Shown: piece by piece, positions 50,859 through 55,769 of the stretch
How positions within the stretch are numbered: position 1 is the stretch's first letter
Layout: every line of letters begins with the position of its first letter
From: Asanoa sp. WMMD1127
GTDB taxonomy: Bacteria > Actinomycetota > Actinomycetes > Mycobacteriales > Micromonosporaceae
Length of the DNA stretch: 64,000 bases
NCBI RefSeq assembly: GCF_029626225.1
Contig: NZ_JARUBP010000001.1
Location: forward strand, 4,836,001-4,900,000
Direction of reading: 5' to 3'
Made by a program: the position numbers and the translations under genes
The notes under the pieces: model-generated
The model's input: the letters and a program-made list of their open reading frames with translations, nothing else
Database searches by the model: none
Told to the model about the DNA's origin: nothing

Positions 50859-53282
50859 ATGCCGAGGGTGATACGTCCGCTTCTGGGCTCAGTGCCCGGA
50901 ATCGTGTGGTTGATCCTCGTCGCGCACCTCGCCGTCGTGCTCTGGCACACCGCGCTGTTCCCCAACTTCCGCTCCCCGGACGAGCGGCAGCACGTCGACC
51001 TGATCGCCGCCGTCCAGCGGGGCACCGCCTGGCCGTGGCCCGATCCGGGCCGGCTGCCGGTCGCCCAGGGCAGCGCGGCGGGTGGCTTCACCGAGGCCGA
51101 CCGGATCGACCAACCGCTGGCGCTCGCGGAGCAGCCGTTGCCGCCCCGGGCGGACCGGCCGTCGTACGCCTCCGCCGGTGGCGCCGCGCCCGACCCGGAC
51201 CAGCGGGCCAACCAGCTGGTCCAGCACCCGCCGCTCTACTACCTGCTCGGCGCCGCCGCCCTGGGGCCCGGCTGGGACCGGGTTCCGTTCGACCGCGCGT
51301 ACCTGGCCCTGCGGTGGTGGAACGTGCTCTTCGCGGCCGCGTTGCCGCTGCTGCTCTGGGCGGTGGCGCGCCGGCTGGGGCTGCCCGATCCCGTGCCGGT
51401 GGCGGCCGCGCTGGTCCCGCTGGCGATCCCGGAGCTGACCCACACCGAGTCCGCGGTCAACAACGACAACCTGCTGGTGCTGCTGTTCGCCGTGCTCACC
51501 CTGCTGCTGGCCCGGGTGCTGACCGGCGACACCACCCGGCGCACCGCCCTGCTGGTCGGCGCGGTCGGCTCGCTCGCGTTGCTCACCAAGGGTTTCGCGT
51601 TGCTGACGCCGGTCTGGATCGGCCTGGCGTACGCCGTCCGCCGTGAACGGGCCGCGCTGCTCCCGCTCGCCGTCGCGTGGCTGGCCTGCCTGCCCGGGCT
51701 GGCCTGGTGGATCCGCAACCGGATCGTGTACGGGTCGGTGCAGCCACACGGTCGCTACACCGGTATTCCGGAGCTCCCCGCCCGCCACTCGTTCGCCGAC
51801 GGCGGCCCGACCTGGCTGCTGCGCCTGCTCGAACGGGTGAACACCCTGTTCTTCGTGCACGACCAGACCGGTGACCGGCTGCACCACTGGCCGTGGAAGC
51901 TGGCGGTGGTGGCCGCGCTGCTGATCGCCGCCGGCATCGCCGTGACCCTGTTCCGCCGGGTGCTGCCGCGGGGCACCACGCTGGTGCTGCTCGCGCCGAC
52001 CGTGCTCCTGCTGGCCATCGTGACCAAGGGCTCCTACGAGCAGTTCGCGGCCAGGCACAGCTACGCCGGCATGCAGGGCCGCTACCTCTACGGCGGCCTG
52101 GTCGGGTTGGCCGTGGTCGCGATGGCGGCCACCGCGCGCCTGCCGGACCGCTGGCGGCGCGCCACCCCGCTCGCGGTGCTGCTGTTCGCGGCGCTGATGC
52201 AGGCGGTCTACGTCGGATACACAGTGGACCTGTTCTGGACGCCGGCCGACGGTGACCGGGTGGCGGCGCTGGCCGCCATCGTCAGCTGGTACGCCTTCCC
52301 ACCGGCCGTGCTCGGCCTCGTGGTCGCGACGCTCCTGGCCGCGTCCGCTGCGACGCTGGTGGGCACGGTTCGCCTCCTGACGCCTCGTGGCGGCTCGGCG
52401 CGCGGAGGGTGCGGGCGCTCAGGCCGTGGCGCGTTCGGCGGCGCTGACCGCGTTGCGGAACAGCATCGCCACCGTGGTCGGGCCGACACCGCCGACCCGG
52501 GGCGTGATCGCGCCCGCGACCTCGGCGACCGACTCGTCGACGTCGGGCAGCAGCCGCCGGCCCTCGTAGCGGACGCCGCCGCCGATGACCGTCGATCCTG
52601 GACGGACGTGCTCGGGCTGGATGATGCCGGGCACGCCGGCCGCCGCGATCAGGATCTCGGCCCGCTGGGTGTAGCGGGGCCAGTCCTTGACACCCGTGTG
52701 CACGACGGTGACCGCGGCGTTGGCGGTGGGCCGCTTCTGCGCGAGCAGCATCGCCAGCGGACGGCCGAGCGTGGCGCCACGGCCGAGGATGACCACCTCG
52801 CGGCCCGAGACCGGGATCTCGTGGAAGGCGAGCAGCGCCTCGATGCCGGCCGGGGTGCAGGGCAGCGGCCCCGGCAGGCCGAGCGCGAGCCGGCCCATGT
52901 TGACCGGGTGCATGCCGTCGACGTCCTTGTCGGGATCCATGACGGCGAGGGCCTGGTCGTAGTCGAGGTGGCCGGGCACCGGGTGCTGCACGAGCAGCCC
53001 GTGCACGGCCGGGTCGCCGCTGAACTCGGCGATCACCCGTTCGAGCTCGGCCTGGGTGGTGTCGGCCGGCAGGTGCGCGTGCGGCGAGACGAAACCGAGG
53101 TCGGCCGCCTGCCGCTGCTTGATCCGGATGTAGCCGGCGCTGGCGTCGTCGTCACCGACCAGGATTGTGGCCAGGGCCGGCGTGACGCCCTTGTCGCGCA
53201 GCACGCGTACCCGGTCGGAGACGTCGGCCAGGATGCTCTCGGCGACCGGACCACCGGGCAGAAGACGCGCGGACATGCTTGA
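50859..53282 (+). CDS. ArnT/PMT-like membrane glycosyltransferase with run-on C-terminus
   Basis: Residues 1 to about 505 form a polytopic GT39/GT83-like protein: Asp-bearing first loop NFRSPDERQHVDLIAAV, helices through ALPLLLWAVARRLG, LLALMQAVYVGYTV and others, extracellular loop motifs GRYLYGG. The coding signal ends near 52380, but no stop occurs; the frame continues for about 300 codons as the pure antisense of folD to 53282, so the last third is low-complexity and unlike any domain. A TGA lies in the +1 frame at 52378, so a single-base change would end the protein at 506 residues. TAGCCT six bases before ATG. Confidence 0.78.
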   Translation: MPRVIRPLLGSVPGIVWLILVAHLAVVLWHTALFPNFRSPDERQHVDLIAAVQRGTAWPWPDPGRLPVAQGSAAGGFTEADRIDQPLALAEQPLPPRADRPSYASAGGAAPDPDQRANQLVQHPPLYYLLGAAALGPGWDRVPFDRAYLALRWWNVLFAAALPLLLWAVARRLGLPDPVPVAAALVPLAIPELTHTESAVNNDNLLVLLFAVLTLLLARVLTGDTTRRTALLVGAVGSLALLTKGFALLTPVWIGLAYAVRRERAALLPLAVAWLACLPGLAWWIRNRIVYGSVQPHGRYTGIPELPARHSFADGGPTWLLRLLERVNTLFFVHDQTGDRLHHWPWKLAVVAALLIAAGIAVTLFRRVLPRGTTLVLLAPTVLLLAIVTKGSYEQFAARHSYAGMQGRYLYGGLVGLAVVAMAATARLPDRWRRATPLAVLLFAALMQAVYVGYTVDLFWTPADGDRVAALAAIVSWYAFPPAVLGLVVATLLAASAATLVGTVRLLTPRGGSARGGCGRSGRGAFGGADRVAEQHRHRGRADTADPGRDRARDLGDRLVDVGQQPPALVADAAADDRRSWTDVLGLDDAGHAGRRDQDLGPLGVAGPVLDTRVHDGDRGVGGGPLLREQHRQRTAERGATAEDDHLAARDRDLVEGEQRLDAGRGAGQRPRQAEREPAHVDRVHAVDVLVGIHDGEGLVVVEVAGHRVLHEQPVHGRVAAELGDHPFELGLGGVGRQVRVRRDETEVGRLPLLDPDVAGAGVVVTDQDCGQGRRDALVAQHAYPVGDVGQDALGDRTTGQKTRGHA
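52419..53276 (-). CDS. folD: bifunctional methylenetetrahydrofolate dehydrogenase/cyclohydrolase
   Basis: A 285-residue FolD: catalytic Lys in GYIRIKQRQAADLG near residue 51, HGLLVQHPVPGHLD, KDVDGMHPVNMGRL, PCTPAGIEALL, and the NADP site VVILGRGATLGRPLAMLL. It interconverts methylene-, methenyl- and formyl-tetrahydrofolate for purine and C1 metabolism. Its leader carries a ZTP riboswitch, which ties expression to the purine precursor ZMP/ZTP. The entire gene is overlapped by the run-on frame of the plus-strand glycosyltransferase. Confidence 0.96.
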   Translation of the reverse strand: MSARLLPGGPVAESILADVSDRVRVLRDKGVTPALATILVGDDDASAGYIRIKQRQAADLGFVSPHAHLPADTTQAELERVIAEFSGDPAVHGLLVQHPVPGHLDYDQALAVMDPDKDVDGMHPVNMGRLALGLPGPLPCTPAGIEALLAFHEIPVSGREVVILGRGATLGRPLAMLLAQKRPTANAAVTVVHTGVKDWPRYTQRAEILIAAAGVPGIIQPEHVRPGSTVIGGGVRYEGRRLLPDVDESVAEVAGAITPRVGGVGPTTVAMLFRNAVSAAERATA

Positions 53283-53283
53283 T

Positions 53284-53380
53284 CCCCCCTCGACCGAGGG
53301 CACCCAGGCGGTCGATGCCCACGGGCGGGCTCCCCGATGGTCGATGCCATCCCGTGCCGCCAGTCGCGCTCCACTCCCAA
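53284..53380 (-). promoter_or_regulatory. ZTP (pfl) riboswitch of folD
   Basis: Read on the minus strand, the leader holds the conserved pfl-motif parts in order: CGACTGGCG (53366-53358), ATGG..CCAT stem (53350-53337), GGGGAGC (53335-53329), a variable stem, then CGCCTGGG (53310-53303), which forms the pseudoknot with the first part. Right after it CCCTCG pairs with CGAGGG (53298-53285), a hairpin that covers the Shine-Dalgarno GAGGGGGG. Ligand binding would open it, giving translational activation by ZMP/ZTP. folD is one of the standard targets. Confidence 0.85.
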
Positions 53381-53386
53381 TATGCC

Positions 53387-54781
53387 CTATCTCCGGTCGA
53401 GCGTCCGCCGGAGGGTGGCCACCGCGGGCGCGATCTCGCCGTCGGCGAGGTTGCCGTAGCCGAGGACCAGCACGGGGGCCGGACGGGTGGACGGCTCGGC
53501 CCGGTAGGCGTCCAGCGCGACCAGCTGCAGCCCGGCCCGGGCGGCGCGGCGGACCACCGCTGCGGTGTCGGTGCCGTCCGGCAGGCGCAGCAGCACGTGC
53601 AGGCCGGCGGCGGTGCCCTCCAGCCGGCCCTCCGGGATCGCCTCGCGCAGGGCGGCCAGCAGCAGGTCGCGGCGGGTGCGGAAGCGGCGGCGGGCGGCGC
53701 GGAGGTGGGCGTCGTACCAGCCGCGGTCCACGAAGGTGGCCAGGGCCAGCTGGTCGAGCACGGGCGGGGCGGTGGCCACCGGGTCGGCGGCCGCGGTCAG
53801 CCGGCCCGGCGCCAGCAGCCAGCCGAGCCCGAGGGCGGGGGAGAGGGTCTTGCTGACCGAGCCGAGCAGGGCCACCCGGCCGGGGTCGAGGCCCTGCATC
53901 GCGGCGATCGGCCGCCGGTCGTAGCGGAACTCGGCGTCGTAGTCGTCCTCCACCACGAAGCCGTCGACGGCGCGGGCCCAGCGCACCAGCGCCGCCCGGC
54001 GGGCGGGAGAGAGCACCACGCCGCTGGGGAACTGGTGCGCGGCGCCGGTGACGACCGCGCGTACGCCCGCCAGCGCGTCGACCCGCAGGCCCTCGTGGTC
54101 GAGCGGCACCGCGCGCACGTGGAGGCCGGCGCCGGCGAGGGCCGCCCGGACCCGCGGCCAGCCCGGCTCCTCGACCGCGACCGCGTCGACGCCGAGCCGG
54201 CGCAGCGCCCGGGCCACCCGGGTCAGGCCGTCGGTGATGCCGGCGCAGATCGTGACCGTGTCGGCCCTGGCCACCGCGCCGCGAGACCGCTGGAGGTATT
54301 CCGCGATGGTCCGCCGGGCCCGCGGGTGGCCGCGCGGGTCGGGCAGGCCGAGGTCCGCGACCGAGACGTCGCCCGTGACGGCCGCCACGCTGTCGGCCCA
54401 CCGGCGCCGGGGGAAGGCGCGCAGATCGGGCAGGCCCGGCGCCAGGTCTAAGCGGGGCGCGGGGGTCTTCGCCCGTTGGCGGGGCGGGCGGCGGTTCCCG
54501 GCGGGCGGGTCGTCGGGAACCCAGGCGACGCGGGTCGCCGACCCGACGCGGGCGGCCAGGTAGCCCTCGGTGACCAGCTGCCCGTACGCCTCGGTGACCA
54601 CCCAGCGCGAGCAGCCGAGCTCCTCGGCCAGCGCCCGGCTGGGCGGGACGGCGGACCCGGTGGGCAGCCGGCCGGACCGGATCGCGCCGCGCAGGGCCCG
54701 GGCCAGCCGCTGGTGGGTGGGACCGGCGCCGGAGAGGTCGAGCAACGTCGCCCACGCAGAATTGGTCTGGGAATCCGCCAC
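53387..54781 (-). CDS. MocR/PdxR-type regulator (GntR HTH plus aminotransferase fold)
   Basis: About 464 residues. Residues 20-85 are a GntR winged helix (GSAVPPSRALAEELGCSRWVV); residues 130-460 are a fold-type I aminotransferase domain with VEEPGWPRVRAAL, HQFPSGVVLSPARR and the PLP Lys in LGSVSKTLSPALGLGWLL. Such proteins sense PLP or amino-acid derivatives. GTG at 54781 has TACGCT eight bases upstream; the longer ATG at 54829 would overlap the divergent start codon. The divergent aldo/keto reductase may be its target, possibly a pyridoxal reductase. Confidence 0.9.
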   Translation of the reverse strand: MADSQTNSAWATLLDLSGAGPTHQRLARALRGAIRSGRLPTGSAVPPSRALAEELGCSRWVVTEAYGQLVTEGYLAARVGSATRVAWVPDDPPAGNRRPPRQRAKTPAPRLDLAPGLPDLRAFPRRRWADSVAAVTGDVSVADLGLPDPRGHPRARRTIAEYLQRSRGAVARADTVTICAGITDGLTRVARALRRLGVDAVAVEEPGWPRVRAALAGAGLHVRAVPLDHEGLRVDALAGVRAVVTGAAHQFPSGVVLSPARRAALVRWARAVDGFVVEDDYDAEFRYDRRPIAAMQGLDPGRVALLGSVSKTLSPALGLGWLLAPGRLTAAADPVATAPPVLDQLALATFVDRGWYDAHLRAARRRFRTRRDLLLAALREAIPEGRLEGTAAGLHVLLRLPDGTDTAAVVRRAARAGLQLVALDAYRAEPSTRPAPVLVLGYGNLADGEIAPAVATLRRTLDRR

Positions 54782-54827
54782 GACATTGGAGCGTACGGCC
54801 TGACCGATCGTCACTAGCGTCGAAGCC

Positions 54828-55769
54828 ATGATGGATCAGCTGGTACTCGGAGCGATGATGTTCGGCACGACCACCGACGAGCGGCGTGCCTTCGCGATCC
54901 TCGACCGGTTCGTCGACGCGGGCGGCCGGTGGATCGACACGGCGAACTGCTACGCGTTCTGGGCCGACGAGAGCGGCTTCGGCGGGCAGAGCGAGGCGCT
55001 GCTCGGCCGCTGGCTCGCCCGCCGCCCGGGGGTGCGCGACCGGGTCTCGATCGCCACCAAGGTCGGCTGCGAGCCGCTGGAGGCGAACCGGTTCCCGGAG
55101 ACGGCCGAGGGGCTCGGCGCGCAGACGATCAAGACCGCGATCGAGGGCAGCCTGCGCCGGCTCGGCACCGACCGGGTCGAGATGTACTGGGCGCACCGCG
55201 ACACCCGGCGCACCCCGGTCGAGGAGACCGTCGCCGCGTTCGGCGAGCTCGTGTCGGCCGGGCTGGTCGGGCGGCTCGGCTGCTCCAACTTCGCGACGTG
55301 GCGGCTCGAGCGGTCACGGCGGGCGGCGGCGGACGCGGGCGTGGCCGGCTACACGGCGGTGCAGCAGCACGCGACCTACCTGCAGCCGCGGCCCGGCACC
55401 CGCCCGACGGTGGTGCACCGGTTCGGCTTCCTCTCCGACGAACTGGTCTCCTATGTGGAGAGCCACGACGACATGGAGATCTGGTCCTACACGCCGCTGC
55501 TGTCCGGCGCCTACACCCGACCCGACAAGCCACTGGCGCCGGAGTACGACCACCCGGGCACCGTGCGCCGGCTGGCCGCCCTCGACGCCGTGGCCGCCGA
55601 GACCGGCACGACCCGCAACCACGTCGTGCTGGCCTGGCTGACCGGCGGCTGCCCGGCGATCAAGCCGATCGTCGGTCCCAGCACGGTCGCCCAGCTCGAC
55701 GACGCGATCGCCGCGATGCCCCTGCGGTTGACGGCGGCGCAGCGGTCCCTTCTGGACAGTGCGGCCTAG
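54828..55769 (+). CDS. aldo/keto reductase
   Basis: A 313-residue AKR: Tyr in TANCYAFWADES, Lys in IATKVGCEP, His in YWAHRDTRR, NADPH site KPIVGPSTVAQLDDAIAAM. TAGCGT lies seven bases before the first ATG, a leaderless arrangement. Head to head with the MocR/PdxR-type regulator. In some bacteria this pairing concerns vitamin B6, so pyridoxal reductase is possible but not shown by sequence. The last 4 bases overlap the convergent protease remnant. Confidence 0.9.
   Translation: MMDQLVLGAMMFGTTTDERRAFAILDRFVDAGGRWIDTANCYAFWADESGFGGQSEALLGRWLARRPGVRDRVSIATKVGCEPLEANRFPETAEGLGAQTIKTAIEGSLRRLGTDRVEMYWAHRDTRRTPVEETVAAFGELVSAGLVGRLGCSNFATWRLERSRRAAADAGVAGYTAVQQHATYLQPRPGTRPTVVHRFGFLSDELVSYVESHDDMEIWSYTPLLSGAYTRPDKPLAPEYDHPGTVRRLAALDAVAAETGTTRNHVVLAWLTGGCPAIKPIVGPSTVAQLDDAIAAMPLRLTAAQRSLLDSAA

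Follow-up and report, generated by a model that had tools for sequence, protein, structure and literature searches.

A putative ZTP riboswitch upstream of folD in Asanoa sp. WMMD1127 and its predicted mode of action

The ZTP riboswitch class (pfl motif, Rfam family RF01750) was reportedly validated by Kim et al. in 2015. ZMP and ZTP are given as its triggers in the available part of a 2020 review (PMC7266159); the accessible sections of PMC2864571 list folD and glyA as targets of the pfl motif, with folD among the five commonest genes, and excerpts of PMC10117056 report a ZTP-lacZ reporter that responds to trimethoprim. In the published ZTP switches, as far as the available text of PMC10085676, PMC7337938 and PMC13273304 goes, a downstream (terminator) strand displaces the P3 helix. 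The Clostridium beijerinckii pfl and Thermosinus carboxydivorans ZTP riboswitches, both transcriptional ON switches, are described in these excerpts as having a downstream strand that competes with P3, which the ligand-stabilised P3 and pseudoknot resist. OFF action is predicted for a tandem ZTP arrangement before moeA in the accessible part of a review (PMC9481103). Our literature search, which missed the class-founding paper, found, among the matches listed and the passages covered, no account of ZTP switches that act on translation in actinomycetes; it gave nothing for a ZTP riboswitch with folD in Actinobacteria and, among the matches listed (titles and abstract openings), nothing on point for ZMP-ZTP with Micromonospora.

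Here, we analysed the leader of folD in Asanoa sp. WMMD1127, which lies on the minus strand of a 64 kb window (the whole stretch of DNA under analysis, 64,000 nt). The leader resembles the RF01750 class in its full-model sequence and structure, in having folD as its target and in the predicted competition between P3 and a downstream strand, as in the C. beijerinckii and T. carboxydivorans switches. It differs in that the predicted competing strand is the Shine-Dalgarno (SD) stretch rather than a terminator and in its short P1, and its ligand is assigned by analogy.

The folD leader and its aptamer

The main features of the locus, in the order of transcription, are as follows.

53387–54829, minus strand: MocR/PdxR-like regulator, 480 aa, upstream, context only (NF052282.1, 345.4 bits, cut-off 320)
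53379–53386, minus strand: promoter −10-like element GGCATATT (CATATT, 53384–53379), directly after the upstream stop codon
53295–53377, minus strand: ZMP/ZTP riboswitch aptamer (pfl motif, RF01750; cmscan, full length)
53366–53369, minus strand: 5′ side of P1, short and interrupted; 53369, 53367 and 53366 pair with 53327, 53329 and 53330 (RF01750 alignment)
53358–53361, minus strand: pseudoknot strand GGCG, pairing with CGCC at 53310–53307
53337–53350, minus strand: P2 hairpin, AUGG (53350–53347) with CCAU (53340–53337) (62 leaders)
53314–53323, minus strand: 5′ arm of P3, core 53318–53314 and extension 53323–53319 (covariation, 62 leaders)
53307–53310, minus strand: pseudoknot strand CGCC, in the P3 loop (62-leader alignment)
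53295–53304, minus strand: 3′ arm of P3, core 53304–53300 and extension 53299–53295 (alignment, covariation)
53284–53291, minus strand: Shine-Dalgarno stretch GAGGGGGG (sequence)
52419–53276, minus strand: folD, 285 aa, ATG start (PF02882 and PF00763, well above cut-offs)

A cmscan search against Rfam matched RF01750 (ZMP-ZTP, pfl motif) at 53377–53295 on the minus strand with 42.1 bits (gathering score 39), and the match covers the full length of the model (positions 1–86; E = 0.0016 for the 64 kb window). It is the sole Rfam match at gathering score within the window and the sole one up to E = 1 in 53100–53500 (E = 1e-5 for this 401-base stretch). Searched with the RF01750 model alone, the whole genome returned two places, namely the folD leader (E = 4.8e-5) and 3488582–3488670. 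The pfl/ZTP pieces before folD (GCGACUGGCGG, AUGG...CCAUCGGGGAGC and CGACCGCCUGGG, on the minus strand) bear out the original prediction that all conserved pieces of the motif occur here in order, and the score exceeds the family cut-off, as that prediction had anticipated. The score is only modest because the alignment marks several of the outer pairs in the consensus P1 as non-canonical in the window leader.

The gene downstream belongs to purine/one-carbon folate metabolism: its product carries both FolD domains, and it is the sole PF02882 match in the genome, which rules out a second folD copy. The best NCBIfam model for the protein is PRK14193.1 (307.1 bits, under its curated cut-off of 401), and its four best matches are FolD proteins of Asanoa species (94–97 % identity).

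A promoter of its own probably drives the leader. GGCATnnT occurs in 63 of 75 leaders within the 22 bases ending 8 nt before GACTGGCG, whereas control stretches taken 100 nt further up have it in 0 of 75; relaxing the pattern to [TC]AnnnT gives 69 in the same 22-base stretch against 5 in the control. The −10 element of the window starts 19 bases before the conserved GACTGG, and this spacing suggests a transcript start at or just inside P1; the outer P1 pairs of the Rfam model may be missing because the transcript would start there. A consensus promoter scan that demands a −35 hexamer found no sigma-70 site; actinomycete promoters often lack this hexamer. The stop codon of the MocR/PdxR-like gene lies directly against the −10-like element (53379–53389), and the sister Asanoa leaders have a longer gap after what is apparently the same gene end.

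Conservation, covariation and distribution

Among the best 80 of 198 FolD loci of relatives, the exact motif was found in 73, ending 20–95 nt before the matched part of FolD; the genera represented include Actinoplanes, Micromonospora, Dactylosporangium, Pseudonocardia, Nonomuraea and others. These 73 loci, the window and L117 gave a set of 75 leaders, reduced to 67 by removal of identical leaders and to 62 distinct aptamer cores. In a family sample of 150 genomes, a ZTP match was present in 144 at E ≤ 0.001, with 142 over the cut-off. All six Asanoa genomes examined (that of the window included) have a ZTP match at or above the cut-off that is the folD leader, the five sister leaders scoring from 39.0 to 46.9 bits; the identification does not rest on the score alone, because the leader recurs in every one of the six.

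The structure holds across the aligned leaders. The two inner P1 pairs form in 62/62 leaders and the third in only 21/62, while P2 is paired in every cell having letters on both sides. The pseudoknot strands GGCG and CGCC are complementary and invariant in all 62, and hence show no covariation; both strands belonged to the pattern by which the leaders were collected, so their invariance alone is neutral on pairing. P3 carries the variation, with 6 of its 10 pairs changed on both sides and 85.6 % of cells paired. For the structure as a whole (62 aptamers), both sides had changed in 61 cells (26.6 in shuffles) and 90.7 % of cells were paired (87.3 % in shuffles); none of 500 shuffles reached either value, although such counts are not probabilities since the aligned sequences are related. 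With the 3′ partners shifted by one to three columns, at most 45.4 % of cells were paired. Two measures were weak: pairs with change on both sides numbered 8 against 6.1, a value reached by 35/500 shuffles, and further pair types numbered 24 against 22.2, reached by 88/500. When P3 arms were exchanged among the 67 leaders, the arm energy was −16.96 kcal/mol with the own partner and −12.87 kcal/mol with those of others, and 0/5000 permutations were as low.

A second ZTP copy in the same genome (L001, 3488582–3488670; 47.9 bits) precedes glyA (SHMT, PF00464). It is of the same class and likewise has a one-carbon target, and differs from the folD leader in its P3 loop and spacer. The earlier claim that a ZTP riboswitch controls folD is backed by this second match together with the model match, the conservation and the covariation; judged from its sequence, the locus upstream of folD is a real, ordinary ZTP riboswitch, and it adds one more locus to the known class.

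Several further observations concern the distribution of these elements. The folD and glyA copies are the only ones in the window genome (RF01750, genome-wide), and another Asanoa genome (G101) has a third ZTP riboswitch (L003, 1501–1584; 61.1 bits) before an AICARFT-domain (purH-like) gene. The folD leader of A. iriomotensis (L035/L120) is longer between P3 and the SD by about 34 bases, which include a GUGGGCA...UGCCCAC hairpin; this insertion is absent from the other five Asanoa leaders. In the DNA examined at the seven folD loci lacking the motif (L039, L057, L075, L077, L098, L103 and L107), no Rfam ZTP match was found at gathering score, so the exact-motif pattern did not simply miss them. 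Four of these loci (L039, L057, L098 and L103) have a −10-like element a few bases before the start codon (e.g. GGCATACTGGGGCGCATG in L098), which would fit loss of the leader and a folD mRNA that is now leaderless.

Predicted mode of control

A scan of 52000–54000 gave no terminator-like site, and intrinsic termination was rejected on this ground; the C. beijerinckii and T. carboxydivorans switches, in contrast, end in Rho-independent terminators according to the available text of their descriptions. The distance from the end of CCGCCUGGG to the in-frame start codon is 20–31 nt in 66 of the 67 leaders (26 in the window; the exception is L035, with 59), and a run of four T occurs in only one leader (L036). 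Because the scan of 52000–54000 showed no terminator and the core lies so close to the start codon, translational control is the better guess for the whole group.

The original prediction placed a CCCTCG/CGAGGG hairpin over the SD. The letters are present (53300–53295 and 53292–53287), but the register is wrong, since six pairs would close a loop of 2 nt. Read as five pairs, CCCUC with GAGGG around a GGUC loop, it is possible at a pair probability of only 0.04 in the window fold. RNAfold prefers another register, which covers the same SD and excludes P3.

53281–53304, minus strand: predicted SD-masking hairpin, GGU-G-CCCUC (53304–53296) with GGGGG-G-AUC (53289–53281) (RNAfold)

The predicted folds discussed here leave out the pseudoknot, ligand, magnesium and co-transcriptional order. 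In the ligand-free ensemble of the window leader, P3 has a probability of about 0.01 and the SD is unpaired at 18 % (0.18–0.28 over four start points and three end points), whereas forcing P3 leaves it unpaired at 82 %. Since forcing P3 opens the SD in this way, P3 and the SD hairpin would compete for one strand, and the two helices are predicted to be mutually exclusive in the window RNA.

The folds thereby point to translation as the level of control and to this hairpin as the ligand-free state in the window, while the ligand and the ON direction are taken from the class. The mechanism that we consider probable, with good confidence, is a ZTP riboswitch through which a shortage of 10-formyl-folate would increase FolD synthesis, and whose P3 arm would be freed in the ligand-free RNA, where translation would be poor. 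As 10-formyl-folate runs short, ZMP/ZTP would accumulate; its binding would hold the P3 helix and the pseudoknot, and FolD synthesis would rise. When no ligand is bound, the 3′ arm of P3 would be free to pair elsewhere, in Asanoa sp. WMMD1127 most likely with GAGGGGGG, and the pairing of this stretch would make for a poor translation start of folD. By analogy with the class and from the modelled folds, a ZTP-activated ON switch acting on translation is most likely.

The masking hairpin itself does not generalise. GAGGGGG is kept in all six Asanoa leaders, and pairing of the SD with the P3 arm is predicted at 0.00–0.01 in the five sister leaders. Among all 67 leaders, it exceeds 0.3 in seven, the window included; when P3 is forced, the SD opens by over 0.2 in eight and closes in two. 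P3 arms pair with their own SD at −11.12 and with the SDs of other species at −10.93, with 0.24 of 5000 permutations as low, and conservation of the SD-masking hairpin across relatives was accordingly rejected. Such a hairpin is also easy to obtain, because the C-rich P3 arm sits beside a G-rich SD: with aptamer and SD fixed, random 6-nt linkers (75 % G+C) gave SD-to-arm pairing above 0.3 in 49.9 % of 1000 trials and at least as high as that of the window in 16.6 %. A single base has a large predicted effect. U53297 faces U53321 in the P3 extension (a U-U mismatch); of the five other Asanoa leaders, four carry an A opposite the U, and in the fifth (L036) the C run is one base shorter. Placing A at 53297 in silico lowered SD-to-arm pairing in the window leader from 0.81 to 0.007. 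From these models, the hairpin looks species-specific. The predicted masking in the window thus stands, in a corrected register, but finds no support in the five sister leaders and is matched by a sixth of the random linkers, and the broader claim of translational control is plausible, given the close start codon behind P3 and the absence of a terminator-like site from 52000–54000.

Competing explanations and implications

The same aptamer and ON switch might operate with a different ligand-free state, either a UCGACC/GGUCGA hairpin or no fixed OFF hairpin at all, access to the SD then being set by overall folding and the SD hairpin being incidental. We regard this as a serious possibility, though one held at somewhat less than even chances.

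53290–53315, minus strand: rival hairpin, UCGACC (53315–53310, P3 loop) with GGUCGA (53295–53290); excludes the pseudoknot

The absence of the SD hairpin from the sister leaders, the ease with which chance produces it and the non-significant preference of P3 arms for their own SD all fit this explanation, as do the UCGACC/GGUCGA complement kept in five of the six Asanoa leaders (the window, L033, L034, L036 and L117) and its appearance in the minimum-energy fold of L117. In the window fold, however, the UCGACC/GGUCGA hairpin has a probability of only 0.004, and it leaves GGGGGG free. Loop-spacer complements of six letters occur in 6 of 67 leaders (shuffles: mean 2.0, maximum 9), and those of five letters in 17 of 67 (mean 9.0, maximum 18); five of the six longer matches are Asanoa, close relatives whose counts are not independent evidence, and none of the six is among the leaders whose start codons were out of frame in this test (L074, L079, L095, L100 and L108). 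As only one leader outside Asanoa (L112) has it among the 67, conservation of a loop-to-spacer hairpin beyond the genus was rejected. It is also conceivable, but unlikely, that the SD-masking arm is very recent, U53297 weakening outer P3 and creating the SD hairpin; in that case, folD would be more tightly off in the ZTP-free state than in the sister species.

A switch that acts on transcription, by way of Rho or of a cryptic terminator, would agree with the terminators through which the described ZTP mechanisms work in the available text of PMC10085676, PMC7337938 and PMC13273304, and with the termination evidence that excerpts of PMC12121620 give at loci including the ZMP-ZTP family. The terminator-free 52000–54000 interval, the short core-to-start distances and the near-absence of four-T runs argue against it, and we consider it distinctly improbable. 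That the aptamer has decayed and lost ligand binding is less credible still, to the point of being very improbable. The score lies just 3.1 bits above the cut-off, outer P1 pairs are non-canonical and the P3 extension contains a U-U, the corresponding pair being U-A in four of the five sister leaders; yet the P3 core and pseudoknot are complete, every column that does not vary among the 62 aligned leaders is intact in the window by definition, and the sister leaders themselves score in the same range. The reading that we prefer remains a ZTP-responsive ON switch that most likely acts on the translation of folD.

The present analysis adds a well-supported ZTP riboswitch in Asanoa, and most of the FolD loci covered (the best 80 of 198) carry the leader ahead of folD. 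The locus would matter slightly more if translational control were true of it, because the ZTP mechanisms described in the available parts of the literature are transcriptional. The Asanoa leaders are nearly identical, yet only one of the six has the predicted SD hairpin, and they are suited to studying change in the expression platform; a recent SD arm, if true, would be an example from nature of an expression platform evolving while the aptamer stays conserved.
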